A stretch of DNA of 64,000 nt, from NCBI GenBank assembly GCA_030835125.1, contig JAUQWM010000005.1, positions 1-64,000 on the forward strand, read 5' to 3'. Under the pieces are notes generated by a model. That model worked only from the letters and a program-made list of their open reading frames with translations. It did not search any database and was not told the origin of the DNA. Shown here in pieces: positions 10,820-63,704 of this stretch. Source of the stretch: Gemmatimonadaceae bacterium (GTDB lineage Bacteria > Gemmatimonadota > Gemmatimonadetes > Gemmatimonadales > Gemmatimonadaceae). A program made the translations under genes and the position numbers. The first letter of the stretch is position 1. Each line of letters starts with the position of its first letter.

Positions 10820-10824
10820 GTCAT

Positions 10825-10936
10825 GCTGCGTGCTGATTGCTGCGGGCTGCTGCTGCCGCTGCGGGCTCGAGCACCAGCACCAGCCCCAGCTCCAGCATGC
10901 GGCGGCAGGCCCAGCAGGCAGCAATCAGTACGCAGC
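10825..10936. repeat. Long inverted repeat of heptamers between convergent genes
   Basis: The left arm (10825-10843, reads gctgcgt gctgatt gctgc) and the right arm (10918-10936) are reverse complements over 19 bases with one G-T pair. The loop is filled by further 6- and 7-base repeats (ctgctgc, ccagcac, ccagccc). The structure fills the whole gap between two stop codons (10819 and 10939). It probably serves as a bidirectional terminator or 3'-end stabiliser. The same word recurs at 34689-34714 and 48178-48343. Confidence 0.85.
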
Positions 10937-10938
10937 CA

Positions 10939-12677: not shown

Positions 12678-14492
12678 GTGGATCTTCTGGAGCACCTGAC
12701 CGCCAGCCTCGGCGGACGCTATCACGTCGAGCGCGAACTCGGTGTGGGCGGCATGGCGACCGTGTACCTCGCGCGCGACGTGAAGCATGACCGGCACGTC
12801 GCGATCAAGGTGCTCCGCGAGAACCTCGCGACCTCACTGGGAGCGGAGCGCTTCCTGCGCGAGATCCGGATCGTCGCCAGGCTCCAGCATCCTCACATCC
12901 TCGGACTGATCGACTCCGGCGAGGCCGAGGGCCTGCTGTACTACGTGATGCCGTACGTGACGGGCGAGTCGCTCCGCACGCGGCTGGCGCGCGAGGGGGA
13001 GCTGCCGCTGTCCGAGGGCGTCTGGATCCTGCGGGAGATCGCCGATGCGATCGCGTACGCGCACGCGCACCAGATCATCCACCGCGACATCAAGCCCGAG
13101 AACGTGCTCTTCTCGGCGCGGCACGCGCAGGTGGCGGATTTCGGGATTGCCCGCGCGGTGAGTGAAGCGGCGGCGGCCGGCCCCATCACGGCGACGGGCA
13201 TCGTCGTGGGCAGCCCCGCCTACATGGCGCCCGAGCAGGCGTCGAGCGATCCCGGCATGGACCACAGGGCGGACATCTACGCGTTCGGCGTGCTGGCGTA
13301 CGAGGTGCTGACGGGCGTGCCGCCATTCACGGCCCCCAGCGCGGTGCAGCTGGTGGCGGCGCACATGACCAGGGATCCCGACCCACTCACCCGGCATCGC
13401 CCCGGCATCCCGGAGACACTCGAGGACACGGTGCTGCGGTGCCTGAGGAAACGCCCCGCCGACCGCTTCCAGCGCGCCGACGAAATCGTCGAGCGACTCG
13501 ATGCGCTCCTCACTGGCCCGCTGAGCGCGGCCATGGGTACCACGCAGGAACATGCCGTCGCCCCCTCCAAGTTCCGCGTCTCCGAGGGGCTCGCCCGTCG
13601 CCTCGACCGGCAGGCCTTCGACCCGCGCATGGCCGGCGACTCCATGGAGTACCTCGACAACCACGCGCGCTCCGATACCCTCGCCTGCTTCGTGCCGCCG
13701 GTCGGCCTCGATGCCGGTGTCCTCGAGGAGCACCTGCGGCTGCTGCCGTGGCGGTGCGTCGCGGTCACCCCATTCTCGCACGAGCCGAACCGCAGCCGGC
13801 GGTACACGCTGTCGCTGGCCGACCACTTCACGCTCCTCCGCCACTTCCTCCGCCACATGGAGGAACGGACCGGCGCGCGCCGCGTGGTGCTGGCGGGCAT
13901 CTCGTCAGGCGCCGACGTGGCGCTTCGCTTCGTCGCGGCCCGGCCCGGCGGTGGCGCCCGGGTGGATGCGGTCCTCGCGTCAGGCGGCAACGTGTCGCTG
14001 GAATCGTGTCACGTCACCGCCATGCTGGCCCGGATGTCCTCGCGGCACCCCGAGCGCCTCCTGGCGGACCTTCGCGCTGTCGGCGAGACGGCCCAGGGGC
14101 TGGACGACTGGCTGACGGTGCACACGTACCTGGTGGAGATGCTCCGCAAGTTCCGCGGTGGCGTGGACCCGTTGCGCCAGCTTGCCCGGGAGATCGTGCG
14201 ACCGTTCGAGGCCGGCGGGACATCGCCGTTCGTCGGGTGGTTCCGCGAGGCCAGCGCGAACGTCCACGCGATCCGCTGTGTGTTCGAGGACGGTGAGCCG
14301 TACCAGACATTCGTGCGAACCCTGCTGGGTTCGTCGTCGGCGCGCGCCGAGTTGGGGGCGAAGTACCAGCCGGGGTCGATCGTCATCGAGCCCGGCGCCG
14401 GCCACTACGACCTGCAGCGGACCGAAGTCCTGGCGCGCCACCTCGACGCGCTGCTGGCCAGGGTCGAGGAACTGCGCCCCGCGCCCGCCTGA
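12678..14492 (+). CDS. Ser/Thr protein kinase fused to an alpha/beta hydrolase-like domain
   Basis: A 604-residue (GTG start) two-domain protein. Residues 1-280 are a Hanks-type kinase: glycine loop LGVGGMATVYLA, lysine in VAIKVLRE (K44), catalytic loop HRDIKPENV (D137), DFGIAR, and SPAYMAPEQ. There is no transmembrane helix after the kinase. Residues about 305-604 form an alpha/beta-hydrolase-like domain with a G-x-S-x-G elbow (VVLAGISSGADVA, S409) and a late histidine (GAGHYDLQ, H576), suggesting a catalytic triad. The GTG at 12678 places the kinase N-terminus where relatives begin; an ATG at 12615 would add 21 residues. Such a fusion suggests phosphorylation-coupled hydrolase control, an inference only. 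Confidence 0.87.
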   Translation: MDLLEHLTASLGGRYHVERELGVGGMATVYLARDVKHDRHVAIKVLRENLATSLGAERFLREIRIVARLQHPHILGLIDSGEAEGLLYYVMPYVTGESLRTRLAREGELPLSEGVWILREIADAIAYAHAHQIIHRDIKPENVLFSARHAQVADFGIARAVSEAAAAGPITATGIVVGSPAYMAPEQASSDPGMDHRADIYAFGVLAYEVLTGVPPFTAPSAVQLVAAHMTRDPDPLTRHRPGIPETLEDTVLRCLRKRPADRFQRADEIVERLDALLTGPLSAAMGTTQEHAVAPSKFRVSEGLARRLDRQAFDPRMAGDSMEYLDNHARSDTLACFVPPVGLDAGVLEEHLRLLPWRCVAVTPFSHEPNRSRRYTLSLADHFTLLRHFLRHMEERTGARRVVLAGISSGADVALRFVAARPGGGARVDAVLASGGNVSLESCHVTAMLARMSSRHPERLLADLRAVGETAQGLDDWLTVHTYLVEMLRKFRGGVDPLRQLAREIVRPFEAGGTSPFVGWFREASANVHAIRCVFEDGEPYQTFVRTLLGSSSARAELGAKYQPGSIVIEPGAGHYDLQRTEVLARHLDALLARVEELRPAPA

Positions 14493-14523
14493 TCAGTGCC
14501 GGTTGGTTCTGTGCTCTGGGCTC

Positions 14524-18361: not shown

Positions 18362-19666
18362 ATGACAAACCAGCCTGCGAGATACACTTGCGCCTTGTTG
18401 GCACTCACCCTGGCAGCCGGCTCCAGCGCGGCCGCTCAGGGAGCGGCCCCCGTCGCCGCTACAGTGGTGGTACGCGCGGCCCGCATGCTCGACCCGGGCA
18501 GTGGCCAAGTGGTGCGCAATGCCTCGGTCGTGGTAACCGGGGATCGCATCACCGCGGTCAACCCGGCCAGCCTCCCAGCCGGTGCCCAGGTGCTCGACCT
18601 CGGTGACGTGACCCTGATGCCGGGGTTCATCGACCTCCACACGCACCTCTCGGGGGAGATTGGCGCGACCTCGTTCATCGAGCCGGTGCTCGAGACGAAC
18701 GTGGACGGCGCCTACAAGGCCGTCCGGCACGGACGGACGACCGTCATGGCCGGCTTCACCACCGTCCGCGACTTCGGCGGCCAGATCACCGTGGCGCTCG
18801 GCCGGGCGGTCGACCGGGGTGACGTCACGGGGCCACGGGTGATCCCCTCGCGCAACGCGTTAGGCATCACCGGCGGGCACTGCGACGTGACCGGCTTTGC
18901 GCCCGGCGTCCTCGAGCTCGGGCCGAAGGACGGCGTTGCCGACGGGCCGTGGGAAGTCGTGGAGGCCGTGCGGTACCAGATCAAGCACGGGGCGCAGGTG
19001 ATCAAGACGTGCGCGACCGCCGGCGTCCTGTCGCTCGAGGGACCGGTGGGCGCCCAGCAGTACACGTACGAGGAGCTGAAGGCGATGGTCGACGAGGCGG
19101 CGCGCCACGGCGTGCGGGTCGCCGCGCATGCCCACGGGGTCGAGGGGATCAAGGCGGCGGTGCGGGCCGGCGTCACGTCGATCGAGCATGGCTCGGTTCT
19201 CGACGACGAGGCCATCGCCCTGATGAAGCAGCACGGAACGTACCTCGTGCCGACCGCGTACCTCCGCGACCGCATCAACCTCGCCGTGCTGCCGCCACTC
19301 GTCAGGCGCAAGGCGGAGACCGTGCTCCCGCTCGCCGCCGAGAGCAACCGGAAGGCGATCGCCGCGGGCGTGAAGATCGCCTTCGGCACCGATGCGGCGG
19401 TCTATCCGCACGGCGAGAACGCGAAGGAGTTTGCGGTCTACGTGAAGCTCGGCATGACGCCACTGGCGGCGCTGCAGAGCGCGACCACCGTCGCGGCCGA
19501 GGTGCTGGGCAAGGACGACCGCGGCGCCATCGCGGTGGGCAAACTGGCGGACCTGATCGCGGTGCCCGGCGACCCGCTCCAGGATATCACCGCCACGGAA
19601 CGGGTGCTCTGGGTCATGCAGGGCGGCAAGGTGCTGAAGGACGAGCGGCCGCGGACGAGAACATGA
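18362..19666 (+). CDS. Secreted amidohydrolase (imidazolonepropionase/Xaa-Pro-dipeptidase-like)
   Basis: A 434-residue exported amidohydrolase with a Sec signal ending SSAAAQG. The full metal site is readable: DLHTHL (H93, H95), the probable carboxylated lysine in VIKTCATAG (K215), AAHAHG (H256), IEHGS (H276) and FGTDA (D344). The C-terminal GAIAVGKLADLIAVPGDPL strand is typical of the family. Such enzymes cleave dipeptides with proline or other cyclic amides. The start at 18362 is taken because the signal peptide begins there. The last two bases of its stop codon begin a 76-base inverted repeat shared with the convergent cyclophilin gene. It is a distant paralogue of the lipoprotein amidohydrolase at 4897. 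Confidence 0.88.
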   Translation: MTNQPARYTCALLALTLAAGSSAAAQGAAPVAATVVVRAARMLDPGSGQVVRNASVVVTGDRITAVNPASLPAGAQVLDLGDVTLMPGFIDLHTHLSGEIGATSFIEPVLETNVDGAYKAVRHGRTTVMAGFTTVRDFGGQITVALGRAVDRGDVTGPRVIPSRNALGITGGHCDVTGFAPGVLELGPKDGVADGPWEVVEAVRYQIKHGAQVIKTCATAGVLSLEGPVGAQQYTYEELKAMVDEAARHGVRVAAHAHGVEGIKAAVRAGVTSIEHGSVLDDEAIALMKQHGTYLVPTAYLRDRINLAVLPPLVRRKAETVLPLAAESNRKAIAAGVKIAFGTDAAVYPHGENAKEFAVYVKLGMTPLAALQSATTVAAEVLGKDDRGAIAVGKLADLIAVPGDPLQDITATERVLWVMQGGKVLKDERPRTRT

Positions 19667-19740
19667 AAGTCGAGGTCGGAGGTCCGAGGTCCGAGGGGAT
19701 GTCTCCGACCGCGGACCTCGAACCTCGGACCTCTGACTTC
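19665..19740. repeat. Inverted heptamer repeat joining two convergent stop codons
   Basis: The left arm (19672-19693, gaggtcg gaggtcc gaggtccg) and the right arm (19712-19733) pair at about 20 of 22 positions around an 18-base loop. The stop codon of the plus-strand amidohydrolase (19664-19666) and that of the minus-strand cyclophilin (19739-19741) touch the outer ends. A bidirectional terminator role is likely, but there is no T-run. Confidence 0.85.
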
Positions 19741-20440
19741 AAGGGCTGATCGTCACTCGAACGATCCGGTCGAGGAGTGGATAGGTGCGGTCCATGAACG
19801 CGTTCCCACCTTCCAGCAGCGGTCCCTGCTTTCCCTGTCGCATTCCTCCGCCTGACGACTCGCCATAGCCGGCATACAGCCGGTCCACCACGTCCATCCC
19901 CGCGACGACCGTCCCCAGGACCGTGAACGCCTCGGGGTCGCTGCGCGCGTTGTCGGTCTTGTTGATGTAGACCTGCGTGGTGCGTGAGTCGGGGCGCGCC
20001 GGGAACGCAAGCGCGAAGGTGCCGCGCCGGTTGGTCGAGCGCGGCGGATCGTCTGCCAGCTCGGCCCTTCCCCAGGCGGAATTCACGGCGGGGTCCCCGT
20101 GAATCCCGAAGTGCACGATGTCGGCCCGCACGCGATGGAGTCGGGTGTCGTCGAAGAAGCCAAGGCGGGCGAGGTTGTACACCCGGTCGGCGCCCAGCGG
20201 GCCCCAGTCCCGGTGCAGCTCGAGGACGAACGTCCCCTTCGTGGTCTCGAATCGCAGGCGCGAGACCGCCGGCGCCGGCCGGCGCCATTCCTCATGCGAC
20301 GGGTCGAGGAGCAGCGCGAGGGCGGGGGACGCTGCCGGCAGCGGTGCGCCGGGAGCGGGGCGGGACATTGCACCGCCGCACGCCAACGCCGGGAGCGCGG
20401 CCGCCAGGACGAGCCATGCCGCCGGTGTGGCCGTCCTCAT
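19739..20440 (-). CDS. Cyclophilin-type peptidylprolyl isomerase lipoprotein
   Basis: A 233-residue exported protein with a lipobox (ALPALACGG). Residues about 60-230 match the cyclophilin fold: FETTKGTFVLELHRDWGPLGADRVYNLARLGFFDD and later TQVYINKTDNAR, EAFTVLGTVVAGMDVVDRLYAGYG. The canonical F-H-R-V is LHRVRADIVHFG here, so catalysis may be weakened. It would assist protein folding outside the cytoplasm. Its ATG overlaps the stop of the degenerate histidine kinase gene (ATGA, 20437-20440), making it the last gene of a coupled minus-strand set behind the Kdp genes. Confidence 0.85.
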   Translation of the reverse strand: MRTATPAAWLVLAAALPALACGGAMSRPAPGAPLPAASPALALLLDPSHEEWRRPAPAVSRLRFETTKGTFVLELHRDWGPLGADRVYNLARLGFFDDTRLHRVRADIVHFGIHGDPAVNSAWGRAELADDPPRSTNRRGTFALAFPARPDSRTTQVYINKTDNARSDPEAFTVLGTVVAGMDVVDRLYAGYGESSGGGMRQGKQGPLLEGGNAFMDRTYPLLDRIVRVTISP

Positions 20441-32849: not shown

Positions 32850-33662
32850 ATGCGCCAGTTCCGTCCGACCCTCCTTGCGCTCACCCTCGTCGCGACCGCG
32901 CCAGCCGCGCTCCTCGCCCAGGGTGGCCGTGGCGGCGGTGAGCCCCCGAAGAACCTCCAGGTCCTGCCCAAGGACATGCCGCGGAACCAGGTGACGGCAC
33001 TGATGCGCCAGTTCACCATGGCGCTCGGCGTTCGCTGTGAGCATTGCCACACCGAGGATCCGGCCGCGGCGGCAGCGGCCGCGTCGGCGCCCGCCGGGGG
33101 TCGCGGTGGCCGGGGTGGCGGACCGCAGCTCGACTACGCGCTCGACGACAAGGAGAACAAGAAGGTCGCGCGCGATATGCTGAAGATGGTCATGGACATC
33201 AACGGCAAGTACCTGCCGACGACCGGTCGCACGCTCAACGACCTGAATCGCGTCACCTGCGAGACATGCCATCATGGACTCGCGAAGCCCAGGACGCTGC
33301 GCGCCGCCATGACCGAGGCGGTCACGGCGAAGGGCGCCGATTCGGCGATCGCGCTCTACCGCGCGCTTCGGCTGCGCTACTATGGCGCCGCGGCGTACGA
33401 TTTCAGCGAGATGTCGCTCAGCGAGACCGGCAACCAGCTCGCGACCGTGCCGGACAACCGGAAGGCCGCCATCGCGATCCTCAAGCTGAACCTCGAGTTC
33501 TTCCCCCAGTCGATCCCCACGCTGCAGAACCTGGCCAATGTGTCGATCCAGGCCGGGGACACCGCCGGCGCGGTGGATGCGCTGAACAAGGCCCTCGCCA
33601 TCCAGCCGGACAACAACCAGCTGCGGAACCTGCTGCAGCGGATCAAGCCGCCGGGATCGTGA
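32850..33662 (+). CDS. Di-haem c-type cytochrome, reaction-centre cytochrome subunit family, with TPR
   Basis: A 270-residue periplasmic cytochrome. A Sec signal ends ALLAQG and is followed by a Gly/Arg stretch. Two haem-binding motifs are present: CEHCH (C63-H67) and CETCH (C137-H141), separated by an Ala/Gly-rich insert. The fold around them (LPKDMPRNQVTALMRQFTMALGV, MVMDINGKYL, LNRVTCETCHHG) matches the photosynthetic reaction-centre cytochrome family, which is widespread in non-phototrophs of this kind. The C-terminal third holds one or two TPR-like units (AILKLNLEFFPQSIPTLQNL). No photosynthesis gene is in the window, so general electron transfer is more likely. Confidence 0.88.
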   Translation: MRQFRPTLLALTLVATAPAALLAQGGRGGGEPPKNLQVLPKDMPRNQVTALMRQFTMALGVRCEHCHTEDPAAAAAAASAPAGGRGGRGGGPQLDYALDDKENKKVARDMLKMVMDINGKYLPTTGRTLNDLNRVTCETCHHGLAKPRTLRAAMTEAVTAKGADSAIALYRALRLRYYGAAAYDFSEMSLSETGNQLATVPDNRKAAIAILKLNLEFFPQSIPTLQNLANVSIQAGDTAGAVDALNKALAIQPDNNQLRNLLQRIKPPGS

Positions 33663-33664
33663 CG

Positions 33665-33688
33665 CGTGATTCGTGAGTCGTGACTCGG
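33665..33688. repeat. Tandem heptamers (CGTGANT) before a start codon
   Basis: Three 7-base units (cgtgatt, cgtgagt, cgtgact) sit between the cytochrome stop (33662) and the isomerase start (33709). The same word in the other orientation (gagtcac) is found inside the isomerase gene and at 56384-56411. Confidence 0.75.
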
Positions 33689-33708: not shown

Positions 33709-34572
33709 ATGATTGACCGTCGCGGTTTTCTCGTGCGTGCCGGCGGGGCACTGGGGGCAACGGCGCTCCTGCATCGTGACGCCCCGGCGATGTCTCGCCT
33801 TGTCGAGTCACGAGTCACGAGTCACGAGTCACTCGAGCGGATCGGCGTCCAGCTCTACACCGTCCGCCGGGAGATGCAGGCGAACGTCGAGCGGACCATC
33901 GAGCAGGTGGCACGCATCGGCTACAAGGAAGTCGAGTTCGCCGGGTACTTCGGTCGCAGCGCCAGGGACATTCGCACCCTGCTGGACGCGAACGGGCTGA
34001 CGGCGCCCTCCGCGCACTCCGCGGACCTGCCGTCCATCCGCACCCGATTCACGCGGGTACTCGAGGATGCCACCACCATCGGCCATCGCTATGTCGTGTG
34101 CGCCTCGCTGCCCCGCTCGGAGCAGGGCGCCGATGGCTACAAGCGCGTCGCCGCGGAGTTCAATGTCGCCGGTGAACAGGCCGCGAAGGCCGGGGTCACG
34201 CTCGGGTACCACAACCACGACGGCGAGTTCACGCGGTTAGGCACCACCAACGGCTACGACATCCTGCTGGCCGAGTGCGACCCGAAGCTCGTTACCATGC
34301 AGATGGACCTGTTCTGGACCCGGAAGGCCGGGAAGGATCCGCTCGCGTACTTCGCGAAGTACCCCGGCCGCTTCGCCAGCGTCCACGTCAAGGACATGGA
34401 TGCCTCGGGTGCGATGGTGGACGTCGGCGCCGGCCAGATGCCGTTCGCCGAGTACTTCGCCCGGTCCGAGCAGGCGGGAATCAGGCACTACTTCGTCGAG
34501 CACGACAGCCCCGCCGACCCCATGGCGAGCATCACGGCAAGCTACCGGCACCTCAGCACGCTCAAGTACTGA
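33709..34572 (+). CDS. Tat-exported sugar phosphate isomerase/epimerase-like protein
   Basis: A 287-residue TIM-barrel protein of the AP-endonuclease-2/xylose-isomerase-like family. It has a twin-arginine leader (IDRRGFLVRAGGALGATALL). Metal-site residues typical of the family are visible: VEFAGYFG (Glu), GYHNHDGEF (His), MDLFWTRKAG (Asp), SVHVKDMD (His) and YFVEHDSP (Glu). Substrates are likely sugars or inositols outside the cytoplasm. Between leader and barrel the coding sequence contains four tandem gagtcac heptamers (33805-33832), read as VESRVTSHESL. The start at 33709 is the one that yields the Tat motif. Confidence 0.85.
   Translation: MIDRRGFLVRAGGALGATALLHRDAPAMSRLVESRVTSHESLERIGVQLYTVRREMQANVERTIEQVARIGYKEVEFAGYFGRSARDIRTLLDANGLTAPSAHSADLPSIRTRFTRVLEDATTIGHRYVVCASLPRSEQGADGYKRVAAEFNVAGEQAAKAGVTLGYHNHDGEFTRLGTTNGYDILLAECDPKLVTMQMDLFWTRKAGKDPLAYFAKYPGRFASVHVKDMDASGAMVDVGAGQMPFAEYFARSEQAGIRHYFVEHDSPADPMASITASYRHLSTLKY
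33805..33832. repeat. Heptamer tract (GAGTCAC x4) inside a coding sequence
   Basis: Four perfect 7-base copies lie inside the isomerase gene, in the linker between the Tat signal and the barrel. Twenty-eight bases are translated, and the reading frame stays open. This is the only copy of the heptamer family found within a gene here. Confidence 0.9.
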
Positions 34573-34635
34573 CGTCCCGTGCGGAGGGCGATGGGGCCAC
34601 CATGTCGCGCAGGCAGTGAAGGGACCGTCCCATCC

Positions 34636-34714
34636 CCCAGCCCCCAGCCTCCAGCCCCAGCCCGAGCACGCTGCCGCAGCAGCAGCCCGCAGCAATCAGC
34701 ACGCAGCAATCAGC
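34636..34714. repeat. C-rich and CAGCAATCAG repeats between convergent genes
   Basis: A stretch of ccagccc-type units (34636-34668) is followed by two copies of gcagcaatcagc exactly 14 bases apart (34689-34700 and 34703-34714). The stop codon of the minus-strand fusion gene (34710-34712) lies inside the second copy. No clear opposite arm is present, so this is a half-element of the type seen at 10825-10936. Confidence 0.8.
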
Positions 34715-45015: not shown

Positions 45016-46158
45016 ATGCCACGTCCCCTGACGCTCCCGGCCCTCGTCCTGGCCGCCGCCTGCGGCACCGGTTCCCCGTCGCCCGTCGCGCCCAACGACC
45101 AGGCTCGGGCGCCGGTGGACACGAGTTCCGGCCCGCCCATCACCTGGGAGTTCGGCGCGAAGTTCGAGCCTCCCGTGGGCAGGGTCGTGCACGGCATGGG
45201 ACAGTGGGCGTCCGGCAATGCGCAGTACCTGGCCATGCTTCCGGCGTCGAGCCAGCCCGCCTCCGAACTCGTGTTCATCGACCTGGGGGACACGCCACGC
45301 CCCTGGAATCCACCGGAGATCGCCGCCCGCATCGCGTCCATCGGCGCGGCCGGCCGCATGCCGTCGATGGACCTCGCGCTGCGCGGGCTGCAGCCGACGC
45401 CGGCCGCGCTCGCCCAGCTCGCCGACAAGACCTATGGCATCGACAGCCTCGTCGCCTATACGACGCAGTACGATGCGCGCATCCAGAGCTTCATCGACGT
45501 CGTCCGCGCCTACGGCCAGCCGGTCCTGTTGCGCATCGGCGGCGAGTTCAGCGGGTGGTGGAACGGATACCACCCCTGGGCCTATCCCGTCGCGTTCCGG
45601 AAAATCGTGAACATGTTCCGCGCCAGTGGCGTCACCAACGTGGCCTTCGTGTGGTGCTACGAGCCCGCCGTCGCGGACGACTTCGATGCCGTCGACGACG
45701 GCGGAGTCGCGAAGTGGTACCCGGGTGATGACGTCGTCGACTGGTTCGGGATCGACCTCTTTGCCGCGCAGGATGTCGGCGGCGCGACGACCGGCCATGG
45801 CGGCGCCCTCACCAGCTTCGCCCGGACGACGCGGTTCCTCGACATGGCGGTGGCGCGCCATCGCCCGGTCATCATCGCCGAGAGTTCGCCCAGTCACTTC
45901 GACCTGGCGAACCTGGCCGAAGCAGCGAGTGCGTGGGATCAGTGGTTCAACCCGTACTTCGCGCTCATCGAGTCGCGGAGTGAGATCAAGTGGTTCACGT
46001 ACATCAACTACGACTGGACGAAGGCGTCGTACTACGCGTCGTCAGGCTGGAAGAACAACGACCTGACCGCCAGCGGGACGATCGCTGCGCAGTACCGGGC
46101 CGAGCTGGCCAGGCCGAAGTACCTGCACGCGCACGAGCTGGGATTGCTGAAGAAGTAG
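45016..46158 (+). CDS. GH26-like glycoside hydrolase lipoprotein
   Basis: A 380-residue lipoprotein (lipobox LAAAC) with a TIM-barrel catalytic domain like GH26 beta-mannanases. The acid/base is in LLRIGGEFSGWWNGY (E177); FVWCYEP and YPGDDVVDWFGIDLF follow; the nucleophile is in VIIAESSPSHF (E289), and WFTYINYDW closes the barrel. Substrates would be mannan or related beta-1,4 or beta-1,3 glycans. A Pro/Ser linker follows the lipobox. A TCGAGGG heptamer repeat begins right after its TAG stop. Confidence 0.85.
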   Translation: MPRPLTLPALVLAAACGTGSPSPVAPNDQARAPVDTSSGPPITWEFGAKFEPPVGRVVHGMGQWASGNAQYLAMLPASSQPASELVFIDLGDTPRPWNPPEIAARIASIGAAGRMPSMDLALRGLQPTPAALAQLADKTYGIDSLVAYTTQYDARIQSFIDVVRAYGQPVLLRIGGEFSGWWNGYHPWAYPVAFRKIVNMFRASGVTNVAFVWCYEPAVADDFDAVDDGGVAKWYPGDDVVDWFGIDLFAAQDVGGATTGHGGALTSFARTTRFLDMAVARHRPVIIAESSPSHFDLANLAEAASAWDQWFNPYFALIESRSEIKWFTYINYDWTKASYYASSGWKNNDLTASGTIAAQYRAELARPKYLHAHELGLLKK

Positions 46159-46159
46159 G

Positions 46160-46186
46160 CTCGAGGGTCGAGGGTCGAGGCTCGAG
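46160..46186. repeat. Tandem heptamers (TCGAGGG) directly after a TAG stop
   Basis: Three 7-base units plus a partial one (ctcgaggg tcgaggg tcgagg ctcgag) start two bases after the GH26 stop codon. The element is almost identical to the one after the TPR gene at 50512-50543, which also follows aagTAGg. Confidence 0.85.
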
Positions 46187-48177: not shown

Positions 48178-48343
48178 CGCTGATTCAGGCTGCGTACTGA
48201 TTGCTGGCTGCTGAGGGCTGCCCCAGCTTGCTGGGGCTAGGAGCCCCAGCCCCCCAGCCCCAGCCCCAGCCCCAGCCCCAGCCACCAGCCCCAGCACGCA
48301 GGACCAGCAGCAGTAAGCAGCAATCAGCACGCAACATGATTCA
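48178..48343. repeat. Long inverted repeat with a CAGCCC-repeat loop between convergent genes
   Basis: The left arm has tgcgtactgattgctg (48191-48206) and the right arm its reverse complement (48318-48333, one mismatch); flanking tgattca/tgaatca words extend the pairing imperfectly. The loop carries about eight cagccc units (48243-48295). The right end covers the stop codon of the minus-strand lipoprotein gene (48341-48343). It is the same word family as at 10825-10936. Confidence 0.85.
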
Positions 48344-50335: not shown

Positions 50336-50511
50336 GTGAGGCAGGGCAAGGGTGGGGCCGCGGACCCGACGGTCCTGCACCTGCAATGCGCACCCGGCCC
50401 GGCAAAACCGTCATGCCCGGCCCGAACGACCCGTCCGCGCCCCCAGGAAGCCCCCCCATTCTCCGCCAGGGGGAAGGACGGCGAGTCGCCGCCCCCGGAT
50501 CGCGGGGTCCG

Positions 50512-50543
50512 CCTCGAGCCTCGACCCTCGACCCTCGACCCTA
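50512..50543. repeat. Tandem heptamers (TCGACCC) at the end of the TPR gene
   Basis: On the minus strand the TPR gene's TAG stop (50541-50543) is followed by gtcgagg-type units (three full plus ctcgagg). Read in that direction it is a near copy of the tract after the GH26 gene (46160-46186). Confidence 0.85.
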
Positions 50544-51443: not shown

Positions 51444-51551
51444 GACATGGCTCCTGGATCGGTCGAGCGCTCGAGCGAGGCGAGGGAGACCCTGGGTCCG
51501 GGCCCTCGCCGAATCCCGTTCTTCTCTACGGATGCGCCCCGTTCGCTGCTG

Positions 51552-51590
51552 AAAAAAACGAAGGCCGGCGCGGGGAAACCCCGGCCGGCC
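51552..51590 (-). terminator. Intrinsic terminator after the cold-shock gene
   Basis: Read on the minus strand, ggccggccgggg-ttt-ccccgcgccggcc forms a stem of about 12 bp with a 3-base loop and is followed by ttcg and seven Ts. This is a textbook rho-independent terminator, placed 21 bases after the cold-shock stop codon. Confidence 0.92.
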
Positions 51591-51611
51591 ATCGTCGTGC
51601 ACTGCGAAACG

Positions 51612-51824
51612 TTACGCCGACACGCGCGACACGTTCTCAGCGGCGGGACCCTTCTGGCCCTGCACCATGTCGAACTCCACGCTCTCGCCATCGTTGAGCG
51701 TCTTGTAGCCCGAACCCTGGATCGCCGAGTGATGGACGAAGCAGTCCTTCTCGCCGCCGGCCGGCGTGATGAAGCCGAAGCCCTTGTCAGCGTTGAACCA
51801 CTTCACGGTTCCTTTCATGCGCAT
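51612..51824 (-). CDS. Cold-shock protein (CspA family)
   Basis: A 70-residue single-stranded nucleic-acid-binding protein of the CspA family ([19 protein letters not shown]). RNP1 is KGFGFI and RNP2 is DCFVHHSAI; the family's usual VFVHFS is altered to CFVHHS. Such proteins act as RNA chaperones. GGAGGAG lies seven bases before the ATG at 51824. A strong terminator follows the gene and a second one lies inside its upstream region (51954-51982), suggesting leader-based control. Confidence 0.95.
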
Positions 51825-52168
51825 ACGAAACTCCTCCAAAAAATGTCCTGCTGAGGTCGGAGCTCCATACGGGCGTGCCCATCGACGACAACTGAGACTG
51901 GTCGCGTGATTGCCCTTCACGCAGGGTCGCCGGAATGGCGAAGAACAGCAAACAAAAAGGGACTCGCGACAACGCGAGCCCCGGCAGCATTGTGGTCGTG
52001 TCTTGCGCGCACCAGCGCGCATCGCTGAAGACAATCTCGCTGGTCAGGGCTGGTTGCACAAGGTCCAAAACCGAAATTCCACGTCCCGGTCCGCCGGACC
52101 GACTACCTTACAATGATGCCCCTGCCGAGTCCGCGGGCGCATCCGTCCCGAAGCCTCCTGGAGCCACG
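51825..52168. other. Non-coding region between the cold-shock gene and a divergent gene
   Basis: The 344-base region contains the leader of the minus-strand cold-shock gene with an internal intrinsic terminator (51954-51982), and the promoter of the plus-strand hypothetical gene (a TACAAT box at 52109-52114 is a candidate -10). No convincing open frame is present. Confidence 0.6.
51954..51982 (-). terminator. Intrinsic terminator inside the cold-shock gene leader
   Basis: On the minus strand ggggctcgcg-ttgt-cgcgagtccc gives a 10-bp stem with a 4-base loop, followed by ttttt. It lies about 130 bases before the cold-shock start codon, with no gene of its own upstream on that strand. It may be an attenuator of the cold-shock mRNA or the end of a small RNA. 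Confidence 0.75.
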
Positions 52169-52746: not shown

Positions 52747-53640
52747 ATGAAACGCTTGATCGCGAAGACCGCCTTGGTCACGACGCTCGCGGTGGTCGTG
52801 ATGCCGGCTCATGCCCAGTCGGCCGCGAGGCGCGCGGTCGACGACCTGATTGCCGCCGATCGCGGCTATGCCGCACGGGCCGGAACGCTGAATGTGGTGG
52901 AAGCGACCGACGCGATGCTCTCCACCGGCGTCGTGATGTCCGCCGCCGGCACGTTCCACGTCGGTCGCGAAGCGGTAATGGCGCAGCTGCGCGCCGTGCC
53001 CGAGAACCTGACCGGGCGCCTGGAGTGGGCTCCGGTGCGCGGCGCGATCTCCGCCGACGGCACCCATGGCTTCACCTTCGGATTCATGACGCTGGTGCGC
53101 GCCGACTCCACGCGCGTTCCCCTCAAGTACCTCGCGTACTGGGTGAAGGGTGCCGACGGCTGGAAGGTGGCGGTCTATCGGCGCGTGAGGCGGCCCGATG
53201 GGGACGCGTCCACGGCGGAGCGCGAACCCCTCGTCCCGGAACGGCTGGTCGCCCCGTCCCCCGATCCTTCCGTGGCTGCTCGTTATGCGCGCGAGATCGG
53301 GGACGCCGAGCGTGCGTTCTCGGACCTGGCCGGAAAGATCGGCCTGGGCCCCGCGTTCACGAGGAACGCCGCACCGGATGCCATGAACATGGGCGGGCCC
53401 GGGAGCGCGGACTTCCTCTACGGCCCCGAGGCGATCGGCGCCGGTGTCGGCGGCGGACAGACCGGGCCTTCGACGCTGACCTGGGGACCGGACACCGTCC
53501 TCGCCGCGTCGAGCGGCGACCTCGGCGTCACCATCGGCCACATCACCGCCCCCGGCGAGGCGGGCGCGCCTCCCCGCCGATTCCCGTTCTTCACCGTGTG
53601 GCGGAAGGTCGGTGCCACCTGGAAGTTTGTGGCGGAATGA
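52747..53640 (+). CDS. Secreted NTF2-like (DUF4440/SnoaL-type) protein, tandem domains
   Basis: A 297-residue exported protein with signal ending MPAHAQ. Residues about 25-155 and 180-297 each resemble the NTF2-like fold of DUF4440/SnoaL proteins (AVDDLIAADRGYAARAGTL ... YLAYWVKGADGWKVAVYRR; AEIGDAERAFSDLAGKIG-like ... FFTVWRKVGATWKFVAE). The two halves seem to be a duplication. Function of the family outside the cytoplasm is unknown. It converges on a TPR lipoprotein across a heptamer inverted repeat. Confidence 0.78.
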   Translation: MKRLIAKTALVTTLAVVVMPAHAQSAARRAVDDLIAADRGYAARAGTLNVVEATDAMLSTGVVMSAAGTFHVGREAVMAQLRAVPENLTGRLEWAPVRGAISADGTHGFTFGFMTLVRADSTRVPLKYLAYWVKGADGWKVAVYRRVRRPDGDASTAEREPLVPERLVAPSPDPSVAARYAREIGDAERAFSDLAGKIGLGPAFTRNAAPDAMNMGGPGSADFLYGPEAIGAGVGGGQTGPSTLTWGPDTVLAASSGDLGVTIGHITAPGEAGAPPRRFPFFTVWRKVGATWKFVAE

Positions 53641-53709
53641 GGTCTGAGGCCCGAGGTCGGAGGTCCGAGATCGGCTCTACCTCCGACCTCCGACCTCCAA
53701 CCTCGGCCT
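53641..53709. repeat. Inverted heptamer repeat between convergent genes
   Basis: Left arm 53647-53669 (aggcccgaggtcggaggtcc in its main part) and right arm 53688-53709 are reverse complements at about 20 of 22 positions with one insertion. The element fills the space between the stops at 53640 and 53711. It uses the same gaggtcc/gacctcc heptamer as 19665-19740 and 54793-54855. Confidence 0.82.
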
Positions 53710-53710
53710 G

Positions 53711-54670
53711 TTATTTCATCCTCGCCAGCTCCGCCTCAGCCGCGATGTATCCGAACGCTCCCCACTGGCCGCCGCCCATGATCCGGCGGAACACTGCTTC
53801 CGCTTCCGCCGGTCGGCCGCTGTAGAGGTGCCAGTTGCCGACGCCATACGCACCGGTCGCGTCGGTCACCGACATCTCACCGCCGGGACCCTGCGTCAGC
53901 ACCGAGTCGACCGGTAGTTCGCCCTTGTAGAGCAGCATCAGCCGGTGGTACGTGCCGTTCTCGATGACCTCCATGTCTTTCCGGAACGCCGCCAGCATCG
54001 CCCGTGCCTCGGCATCCTTCCCCAGCCGGCGCAGGCTCATGTACTGCCAGTGCCCCGCCGACACCCGCCGATCGTCATTCTGTGCCGCGGCGACTTCCTT
54101 CCCGAACACCTCGGCCGACTTCGCGAAGTCGCCCTTCAGGTAATACGCCAGCCCCAGGTGATAGGCGATGTTCGAGTGGAGCGTGCCGATCGGCCGGTTC
54201 TGCGCGTTAGGCTGACCGTCCGGCTCGACCTCGTCGGGCTTGCCGGCGACCAGTTGCGTGGCCTTCTCCAGGTCGGCGATGGCGTTGTCCAGTTCGCGGA
54301 CCGAGATGTACCGGTGACCGCGGTGCCGATACATCCACGGGTTCTCAGGGTGCTGGGCGATGCCCGCCGTGTACGCGTCGATGCTCTCGCGGAACCGTCC
54401 CAGGTATCCCAGGCGGCGCGCATACCAGATGATCGAATCAGGATCGGAGGGCGCCCGGTCGAACGACGCCTTCGCCTCGGTCAGTTGCGAGTCGTACCGC
54501 GCACGAACCTCGGCGCTGAGCGGCAATTCCCGCAACGAGTCCCCGAGGAACGAGACGGCCTGGACTACGACGGGAGCCGGCGCGGCCAGGGAATCGGCGG
54601 CAGGTTCGCCACCACGGGTGCAGCCGGCGACGAGGACGATGCCGAGAATCGGAAGAATGAGTTTTCGCAT
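53711..54670 (-). CDS. TPR-repeat lipoprotein
   Basis: A 319-residue lipoprotein with lipobox LVAGC. The body consists of TPR-like helices (DSIIWYARRLGYLGRFRESIDAYTAGIAQHPENPWMYRHRGHRYI; NIAYHLGLAYYLKGDFAKSAEVFGKEV; AEAEAVFRRIMGG). It probably serves as a periplasmic scaffold. The start at 54670 opens the signal peptide; the frame is open for another 1.3 kb antisense to the M16 gene, which is spurious. It is divergent from the M16 peptidase gene, with REP-like and heptamer repeats between them. Confidence 0.8.
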   Translation of the reverse strand: MRKLILPILGIVLVAGCTRGGEPAADSLAAPAPVVVQAVSFLGDSLRELPLSAEVRARYDSQLTEAKASFDRAPSDPDSIIWYARRLGYLGRFRESIDAYTAGIAQHPENPWMYRHRGHRYISVRELDNAIADLEKATQLVAGKPDEVEPDGQPNAQNRPIGTLHSNIAYHLGLAYYLKGDFAKSAEVFGKEVAAAQNDDRRVSAGHWQYMSLRRLGKDAEARAMLAAFRKDMEVIENGTYHRLMLLYKGELPVDSVLTQGPGGEMSVTDATGAYGVGNWHLYSGRPAEAEAVFRRIMGGGQWGAFGYIAAEAELARMK

Positions 54671-54766
54671 GGATGGGACGGGGCAGGTGGCAGGCACGTC
54701 GTACGGTCCCGCCAATATCCCCCCCCGCCGGACCCGCGGCCAGTCGCAATGGCGTAAAGTCGCAAA

Positions 54767-54779: not shown

Positions 54780-54792
54780 ATTGCCGACGTCG

Positions 54793-54855
54793 GACCTCCG
54801 ACCTCGGACCTCCGACCTCCGACCTCCGACCTCCGACCTCGGACCTCCAACCTCC
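54793..54855. repeat. Nine tandem heptamers (GACCTCC)
   Basis: Nine contiguous 7-base units: six gacctcc, two gacctcg and a final aacctcc. They lie between the divergent TPR lipoprotein and M16 genes, about 77 bases before the M16 start. Confidence 0.92.
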
Positions 54856-54931: not shown

Positions 54932-56314
54932 ATGCACTTCCCTGTTCGAGCGCTGGCGCCCCTCGTGTTCGCTACCGCCGCTGGCCTGGCGGCCTGCGCC
55001 GGCGGATCCGAGTCGGACGCGCCCACCACGCTGACCGTCGAGTCGGACTACTACTCCCTCCCGAACGGCCTGAAGGTCGTCCTTTCGCGGGACACCACCG
55101 TGCCGACGGTCGGCGTGGGCGTCTACTACCACGTGGGGTTCCGCAACGAACCACGCGGCCGGACGGGATTCGCGCACCTGTTCGAGCACCTGATGTTCCA
55201 GGGGTCCGCGAACCTCGGCAAGATGGAGTTCATCAAGCTGATCGAGAACAACGGCGGCCTGTTGAACGGCTCCACCCGCTTCGACTTCACGAACTACTAC
55301 CAGGTCGTTCCCTCGCACACGCTCGAGACCGTGCTGTGGGCCGAGGCGGACCGGATGAAGGGCCTCGCGATCGACACGACGAGCCTGAAGAACCAGCAGG
55401 ATGTGGTGAAGAACGAGGTCCGGGTGAACGTGCTCAACCAGCCGTACGGAACGTTCCCGTGGATCGACCTGCCCATGACGGCAAACGAGAACTGGTACAA
55501 CGCGCACAACTTCTACGGCGAGTTGTCCGAGCTGGAGGCGGCCACGCTCGAGGATGCGTCGGCATTCTTCAGGACGTACTACGCGCCGAACAATGCGGTC
55601 CTGGCCATCGTCGGCGATTTCGAGCCGGCGGCGGCGAGGCAGTGGGTGGAGAAGTACTTCGCCGCGATCCCGAAAGTGGACCAGCCGGCGCCGCCCGACC
55701 TCACCGAGCCGCGGCAGGAAAAGGAAAAGCGCGCCAGCCGGGTGGACAAGCTGGCGACGCGTCCCGCGCTGGGGATCGCGTATCATGTGCCGCCGCGGTG
55801 GTCCGCCGACTGGTACGCGATGGGGCTGATCGACCAGATCCTGGGTCAGGGACGCGATTCGCGGCTTTACGACGCGCTCGTCCAGCGGACGGGGCTCACG
55901 AGCGATGTCGGGGCCGGGATCAACTGGGGCCTCGGGAACATGTTCAACTACGAGGGGCCGATGCTGTGGATGGTCGCGGTGTACCACGACCGCGACAAGT
56001 CGGCGGACTCGCTGCTGACGGTCATCGACTCCGAGATCGAGTCGCTCCGGACCACGCCGGTGGATTCGGCCACGATCGAGCGGGCGCGGACCAAGATGCG
56101 GTCGTCGCTGTACTCGATCGTCGAGGAGTTCTCCGGACTCGGGAAGCTCGACCTCCTGGCGTCGTTCGCGTTGTTCGACAACGACCCGTCGAAGTTCAAC
56201 GCCCTCGAGGAAGGCTTCGCCCAGGTGACGCCCGAGCAGATCATGAAGACGGCGTCGGAGTGGCTCCGCCGTGAGAACCGCACGGTGTATACGGTGGTTC
56301 CGGGAGCGGGGTGA
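54932..56314 (+). CDS. M16 family zinc peptidase lipoprotein, active subunit
   Basis: A 460-residue exported peptidase with lipobox GLAAC. The inverted zinc motif HxxEH is present in HLFEHLMFQGS (H82, E85, H86), and the third ligand is likely in VVKNEVRVNV. The pattern YYSLPNGLKVVLSRD ... GVYYHVGFRNEP is the usual M16 opening. The C-terminal domain (from about residue 240) is the non-catalytic half. It forms a pair with the next gene, whose product lacks the zinc site, like mitochondrial processing peptidase subunits. An in-frame ATG at 54896 is less likely. Confidence 0.93.
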   Translation: MHFPVRALAPLVFATAAGLAACAGGSESDAPTTLTVESDYYSLPNGLKVVLSRDTTVPTVGVGVYYHVGFRNEPRGRTGFAHLFEHLMFQGSANLGKMEFIKLIENNGGLLNGSTRFDFTNYYQVVPSHTLETVLWAEADRMKGLAIDTTSLKNQQDVVKNEVRVNVLNQPYGTFPWIDLPMTANENWYNAHNFYGELSELEAATLEDASAFFRTYYAPNNAVLAIVGDFEPAAARQWVEKYFAAIPKVDQPAPPDLTEPRQEKEKRASRVDKLATRPALGIAYHVPPRWSADWYAMGLIDQILGQGRDSRLYDALVQRTGLTSDVGAGINWGLGNMFNYEGPMLWMVAVYHDRDKSADSLLTVIDSEIESLRTTPVDSATIERARTKMRSSLYSIVEEFSGLGKLDLLASFALFDNDPSKFNALEEGFAQVTPEQIMKTASEWLRRENRTVYTVVPGAG

Positions 56315-56319
56315 GGCAG

Positions 56320-56361
56320 GCTCGAGGCTCGAGGCTCGAGGCTCGAGGCTTGAGGCTTGAG
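56320..56361. repeat. Six tandem heptamers (CTCGAGG/CTTGAGG)
   Basis: Four ctcgagg units and two cttgagg units directly follow the first M16 gene (stop 56312-56314). Confidence 0.9.
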
Positions 56362-56383
56362 TGAAGTAAGGTTCCGGGGTGCC

Positions 56384-56411
56384 GAGTCACCAGTCACGAA
56401 TCACGAGTCAC
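56384..56411. repeat. Four heptamers (GAGTCAC) at the second M16 start
   Basis: Units gagtcac, cagtcac, gaatcac and gagtcac end three bases before the ATG at 56415, where a ribosome-binding site would be expected. The same heptamer is found at 33665-33688, 33805-33832 and 63590-63603. Confidence 0.88.
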
Positions 56412-63589: not shown

Positions 63590-63704
63590 TCGTGACTCGT
63601 GAAATCTGCAATCCGCACTCTGCACTCTGCACTCTGCACTCTGCACTCTGCACTCTGCACTCTGCACTCTGCACTCTGCACTCTGCACTCTGCACTCTGC
63701 ACTT
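63590..63704. repeat. Heptamer tract, twelve GCACTCT copies with graded variants
   Basis: Twelve perfect gcactct units (63615-63698) are preceded by cgtgact, cgtgaaa, tctgcaa and tccgcac in the same 7-base phase. The tract fills the gap between the propeller gene (start 63579) and the next minus-strand gene (stop 63706). Confidence 0.95.

Follow-up and report, generated by a model that had tools for sequence, protein, structure and literature searches.

How do long hairpins with arms made of tandem heptamers arise between converging genes, and do they serve these genes? The question is raised by the gap between an amidohydrolase gene and a cyclophilin gene of a Gemmatimonadaceae bacterium (19665-19740). 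The gap belongs to a stretch of 64,000 nucleotides, hereafter the window, which is contig 26 in a draft genome of 4.48 Mb with a G+C content of 68%. Gap statistics were determined in 864 kb (19% of the genome), composed of the window and stretches of five further contigs; these stretches amount to 800 kb and were selected blind to repeats. Sample genes were called with a codon-model finder, which missed some genes or misplaced their start (e.g. near 33790). Heptamer arrays were found with Tandem Repeats Finder and a period scan. The relatives compared include a genus-mate (G001), whose assembly of 570 contigs is 72% complete and may have lost part of its repeats, and Gemmatirosa kalamazoonensis (G016) of the same family, with a sample of 500 kb. 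The third contig of G016 is 100% identical across 20 kb to a plasmid record of G. kalamazoonensis.

Results

Hairpins in the convergent gaps of the window

Inverted arms are present in all four convergent gaps for which a sequence-only reading had described them: 10825-10872 with 10889-10936, 19672-19696 with 19709-19733, 48181-48206 with 48318-48343, and 53651-53674 with 53683-53706. They are not all of one kind: the gaps at 19665 and 53641 are built from GAGGTCN and those at 10825 and 48178 from a composite element, here named family B. The predicted RNA folds of the gaps are highly stable with −81.2 kcal/mol (z −6.3) for 10825-10936, −50.6 kcal/mol (z −6.1) for 19665-19740, −77.3 kcal/mol (z −5.1) for 48178-48343 and −44.4 kcal/mol (z −5.4) for 53641-53709, and none of the shuffled sequences reached the native stability. 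A fifth convergent gap (34573-34709) indeed has a single arm (z 0.15). The count of four hairpins in five convergent gaps has to be corrected, because at least one further convergent gap of 31 bp, 14493-14523, is without a hairpin.

At 19665-19740 the stem is abutted by both stop codons, as described before. The left arm, GAGGTCN x3.6 in the F orientation defined below (19672-19696, plus strand), starts 5 nt past the stop codon of the amidohydrolase gene (18485-19666, plus strand). The right arm, an NGACCTC array in R orientation, spans 19707-19740 (plus strand) with its paired core at 19709-19733, and overlaps with the stop codon that ends the cyclophilin gene (19739-20368, minus strand). Likewise, a GAGGTCN F arm (53638-53674, plus strand) overlaps the stop codon of a DUF4440 gene (52801-53640, plus strand), and its R arm, a GACCTCC array (53679-53706, plus strand), adjoins the stop codon of a TPR gene (53711-54670, minus strand). 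The flanking genes are ordinary and encode, among others, a Xaa-Pro dipeptidase-like amidohydrolase, cyclophilin, DUF1015, beta-lactamase-like and TPR proteins. No Rfam RNAs were found in the window.

A stable hairpin downstream of the stop codon is what an intrinsic terminator would have; the U-tract after the stem is missing. The reported absence of T-runs was confirmed at all four hairpins of the window, and five or more T within 8 nt followed 1 of 54 hairpin sides in the sample. For comparison, the cold-shock gene (51612-51824, minus strand; Pfam CSD) has the normal intrinsic terminator ascribed to it, a GC stem with TTCGTTTTTTT directly downstream (51550-51595, minus strand). A second T-tailed hairpin upstream of this gene (51959-51982, minus strand; GGGGCTCGCG TTGT CGCGAGTCCC TTTTTG) might be an attenuator in the leader, or mark where an upstream unit ends. 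As a separate observation, the segment 12685-13445, part of gene 12678-14492, matches about 20 paralogous DNA stretches of the genus-mate at 66-72% identity, which points to an expanded gene family of large size.

Family B combines AGCAATC/AGCACGC arms with AGCCCC or AGCACC hexamers and occurs at 10825, 48178 and 34573. It forms a composite inverted repeat with the arms GCTGCGTGCTGATTGCTGC and GCAGCAATCAGTACGCAGC and hexamers inside at 10825-10936, another one with an AGCCCC run (48242-48295) at 48181-48343, and a single right half lacking its partner arm at 34629-34714. The 864 kb contain 36 matches, 34 of them noncoding, and a few are found in the genus-mate. This behavior is REP-like, in a genome without RAYT. 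A separate dispersed palindrome, AATGGGGTCTGACCCCATTG, occurs singly or paired in intergenic positions (C45:197647-197788, C59:56265-56415, C22:78456-78690 and near 54760 of the window).

Heptamer arrays and their polarity

At a stricter score the 864-kb sample contains 127 period-7 arrays, 112 of them noncoding, no period-8 array and two of period 5. At least 11 heptamers are used: GAGGTCN, GCAGAGT, GAGGGTC, GAGAGTT, GGCATCA, CTCGTGA, GCGCAAA, AGATGGG, GAGGCCA, AATCGGG and GCTGATT/GCTGCTT. Three successive GAGGTCN units match 125 times in the genome versus once for the reversed control.

Nearly all heptamers share one polarity. On the left, a gap is bordered by the F form, which is usually purine-rich, and on the right by R, its reverse complement, regardless of gene orientation. 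Neighboring arrays follow the order F-then-R in 50 cases and R-then-F in 2, a count that is partly circular, since the majority within a family decides which form is called F. A leave-one-out test gave 100 agreeing and 23 disagreeing arrays, many of the latter in mid-gap. Measured blind to family, the purine content at array edges is 0.63 on the left versus 0.36 on the right (P = 7e-13); the corresponding values are 0.64 and 0.42 in the genus-mate and 0.69 and 0.38 in Gemmatirosa (periods 7-9). A general compositional polarity of gap edges was rejected as the cause, with edges that lack arrays being nearly neutral (0.53 versus 0.47). The polarity is also seen at single arrays, mixed arrays and 5′ edges. 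Termination alone does not explain this. We also rejected the idea that arrays supply stop codons, for which a 7-nt period would be suited by running through all frames (7 mod 3 = 1): each of the stop codons is found with most families, and there are several heptamers without any stop.

The hairpins had been presented as a property of convergent gaps, which did not hold: arrays of the window also occupy tandem gaps (33658, 46157, 50511, 56318 and 63600) and the divergent gap at 54786-54855. A CTCGTGA F array follows a stop codon in a tandem gap (33657-33687, plus strand), and a TCACGAG R array of the same heptamer (33804-33832, plus strand) probably precedes the true start of the gene that follows. 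In two further tandem gaps, F arrays overlap the stop codon, namely GGGTCGA/GGCTCGA at 46157-46186 (plus strand) and GGGTCGA at 50511-50542, where both array and stop codon are on the minus strand. Ten GACCTCC units in R orientation fill the divergent gap (54784-54855, plus strand) upstream of the plus-strand gene 54965-56314. A tandem gap with mixed heptamers contains GGCTCGA x6 in F orientation after a stop codon (56318-56361, plus strand) and a TCACGAG R array (56383-56411, plus strand) that is unable to pair with it, and GTGCAGA x14 in F orientation follows a minus-strand stop codon at 63605-63703 (minus strand).

Association with 3′ ends in three genera

Period-7 arrays are found in 27 of 60 convergent, 82 of 230 tandem and 12 of 78 divergent gaps of the 864 kb, leaving 33 convergent gaps without an array and 24 with neither array nor stem. 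Of the convergent gaps, 15/57 contain an inverted repeat scoring at least 14, compared with 20/217 of the tandem and 3/76 of the divergent ones (P = 2e-4 for convergent against divergent gaps); such repeats are almost missing from dinucleotide shuffles. Arrays in the expected orientation were counted at a distance of up to 25 nt from 36 of 120 convergent 3′ ends, 48 of 230 tandem 3′ ends, 30 of 230 tandem 5′ ends and 10 of 156 divergent 5′ ends.

In Gemmatirosa, 22/44 convergent gaps have a stem scoring at least 16, as do 47/196 tandem and 4/57 divergent ones (convergent versus divergent, P = 1e-6). Roughly every second convergent gap has a near-perfect stem, with arms that often consist of tandemly repeated units of 7, 8, 9 or more bases, including GAGCGTG, AGGGCAGG, GGCTGCGT and AGAGGACGC, and almost none of these stems has a T-tail. 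In a further relative (G015), stems scoring at least 14 are found in 7 of 10 convergent, 11 of 34 tandem and none of 8 divergent gaps, again without T-tails; the array-poor relatives G011 and G014 yielded too few gaps for such counts. Since the pattern is the same in these three organisms, U-less 3′-end hairpins seem to be shared by at least three genera of the family, many of them being built from heptamers in the species studied here.

Inverted arms are therefore not equally frequent in divergent gaps, neither here nor in Gemmatirosa. The proposed role as bidirectional terminators or 3′-end protectors gains from this, as hairpins that track 3′ ends fit either function. A restriction to convergent gaps is not supported, nor, as described below, is any conservation of the hairpins from site to site.

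Pairing of the same heptamer across a gap

If gap edges acquired arrays independently, 2.4 gaps with F and R arrays of the same heptamer would be expected, and 26 were observed; gaps with mixed heptamers are at chance (23 observed, 21.2 expected). The excess of pairs thus resides wholly in gaps that can form a hairpin. Under label shuffling, adjacent arrays share their heptamer in 5.6 ± 2.2 of 50 pairs, versus 27 observed. Regional clustering of heptamer families, considered as a cause, was not seen: neighboring gaps share a heptamer in 15 cases versus 11.6 ± 3.2 by chance, so that the pairing has no regional basis.

The arms of one hairpin are no more complementary to each other (0.915) than to arms of the same family from different gaps (0.921), which speaks against recent copying from arm to arm and also against fine compensatory selection; arm-to-arm copying was rejected on this ground. 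Arm lengths vary freely without correlation, and the spacer between the arms is unrelated sequence of 6-95 nt. Single arms are as common as pairs and carry a weak trace of a former partner (P = 0.02).

Turnover between species

The array of three GAGGTCN units with its 125 matches has none in the genus-mate and is present in 3 of 59 genomes of the family including its own. The genus-mate has 38 arrays in 251 kb, in the same kind of place and with other heptamers such as GCGATGA, GGGTACA and GGGAGTT; those of a further relative (G003) differ again (e.g. GGAACCA, GGGAATC and GGCTGAT). Among 20 gaps orthologous between the species and its genus-mate, arrays are present in 10 here, in 6 of the genus-mate and in 5 of both, almost always with a different heptamer, and no conservation of hairpins was found at these 20 gaps. 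The gap orthologous to 19665-19740 contains ACCGCAGACCGCAGATCGCAG, another heptamer, and lacks a hairpin. The differing heptamers at orthologous gaps support the earlier suggestion that such hairpins grow and decay, for which slippage would be the probable mechanism. Outside the family, GAGGTCN arrays are present in many phyla, with an inverted partner in 6 of 80. Arrays of four units of this one heptamer occur in such unrelated groups as Verrucomicrobia, Kiritimatiellae, Lentisphaerae, Acidobacteria, Deltaproteobacteria, Planctomycetes, Bacteroidetes, Chloroflexi and Streptomyces.

Discussion

We hypothesize that the arrays are heptameric simple-sequence repeats grown by slippage with a fixed polarity at gap edges, and that pairs of the same heptamer are kept as U-tract-less terminators or 3′ protectors. 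Judged from sequence comparison, we give this reading about an even chance. Slippage by 7 nt would create and lengthen the arrays, and the same heptamer on both edges of a gap would yield a long hairpin without a U-tract, mostly at the 3′ ends of transcripts. When transcribed, such a hairpin may cause RNA polymerase to pause or to be released (in convergent gaps from either side), block 3′-5′ exonucleases, or do both; either effect could cause paired arrays to be kept. A purine-rich 5′ arm followed by a pyrimidine-rich 3′ arm would place a weak rPy:dPu hybrid under the polymerase at stem closure. If complementarity matters merely at the level of the family, the heptamer would be free to turn over. 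The dominance of period 7, the excess of same-heptamer pairs, the lack of regional clustering, the tie to 3′ ends in three genera, the T-rich tail after a single one of 54 sides, the other heptamers at orthologous gaps of the genus-mate and the frequent transcript starts or stops at comparable repeats of Xanthomonas (PMC4692102; see below) argue for this reading. Against it stand the hairpins unconserved at orthologous gaps, the ordinary T-tailed terminators of the same genome, the 33 of 60 convergent gaps without arrays, the frequency of single arms and the lack of extra complementarity within hairpins.

Several of these points would be expected if the repeats were neutral, with slippage acting everywhere, selection clearing genes and promoters so that arrays pile up at 3′ ends, and pairs arising by template switching in the gap, so that the hairpins have no particular role. 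Quick replacement between species, unconserved hairpins, freely varying arm lengths and GAGGTCN arrays that mostly lack a partner in other phyla are consistent with this possibility. We consider it less likely than the first reading, because three genera share the polarity at gap edges and the association with 3′ ends, and because template switching predicts arms that match their own partner better than arms of other gaps. Family B, being dispersed, mostly noncoding and missing from the gap of the genus-mate orthologous to 10820-10938, could suggest that a transposase mobilizes the inverted repeats as units, in the manner of REP or MITE elements. Such mobility was already weakened by the failure to find a Y1 transposase (PF01797) in the genome with positive controls, and heptamer arrays vary freely in copy number without fixed boundaries. 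Mobile palindromes are a very improbable source. The polarity, set by the gap edge and not by transcription and similar to that reported in Xanthomonas and Nostoc (PMC4692102), would also follow from an end-related DNA process that deposits heptamers rich in purines from the gene edges outward, for example by 3′-end extension at breaks in the gap and subsequent joining. Both sides would then receive the same heptamer in F...R order whatever the gene direction, with the hairpin as a by-product. Ku is encoded here and in the sampled array-rich relatives G001, G003, G006, G015 and G016; it was rejected as a predictor of arrays, as the array-poor relatives G011, G013 and G014 also have it. Telomerase-like reading of a template is contradicted by the absence of a reverse transcriptase (PF00078) here and in Gemmatirosa, and joining would leave the arms adjacent instead of separated by an unrelated spacer of 6-95 nt. 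We regard this process as very improbable. A broader variant is doubtful, though less so: an undescribed process in Gemmatimonadota, apparently also in Xanthomonas and Nostoc, might lay purine-rich arrays outward from gene edges regardless of transcription direction, pair the same heptamer across the gap and keep making U-less 3′-end hairpins of free sequence.

If paired arrays end or protect transcripts, as slippage-grown repeats kept for this purpose may do, 3′-end hairpins would be built from whichever heptamer currently spreads. Their anatomy would be conserved and their sequence not, so that homology-based annotation would miss them. The split between a pair excess confined to hairpin-capable pairs and a polarity of all arrays offers a testable handle on why heptamers dominate the longer simple repeats of bacteria.

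Comparison with known systems

The papers searched contained none on such repeats in Gemmatimonadota. The stems resemble intrinsic terminators in being GC-rich, past stop codons and common to convergent genes, and differ from them by the near-absence of T-runs, by arms of tandem heptamers and by their position directly at the stop codon. Like REP/REPIN elements they are extragenic palindromes that are dispersed and close to 3′ ends. Family B is similar to an intergenic palindrome that has a fixed sequence and a high copy number. This is not the case for GAGGTCN and the other heptamers, whose arms are without fixed length or boundary and whose sequences are many and unrelated, and a RAYT gene is absent. 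The TAACTGA direct repeats of Beggiatoaceae, Cyanobacteria and Bacteroidetes (MacGregor 2015, PMC4679880) are likewise dispersed intergenic heptamer arrays with a patchy distribution across phyla. They differ in consisting of one motif, located mostly just upstream of start codons, and the main genome was reported to contain a single indirect (inverted) repeat (PMC4679880).

The closest counterparts are the GGGNATC heptamer repeats of Xanthomonas and Nostoc, intergenic arrays that lie closer to the 5′ neighboring ORF whatever its orientation (Rehm et al. 2015, PMC4692102). Inverted pairs number 70 in Xcc and 75 in Xac, with few between divergent genes, and in Xanthomonas, starts or stops of transcripts are more frequent at G4-capable repeats than at control sites (PMC4692102). 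Our arrays agree with them in the head-to-tail intergenic units of 7 nt, the edge polarity independent of ORFs, the inverted pairs and their scarcity in divergent gaps. In contrast to a single G-rich, quadruplex-capable heptamer, at least 11 heptamers are used here, several of them not G-rich and many without GGG. Moreover, 83% of the Xanthomonas sites are conserved between two species, usually with their pair type (PMC4692102), whereas heptamers are replaced within the genus studied here. The best reading of the sequences is that these repeats are of the kind known from Xanthomonas and may have been recruited here as fast-turning, U-tract-less 3′-end hairpins.
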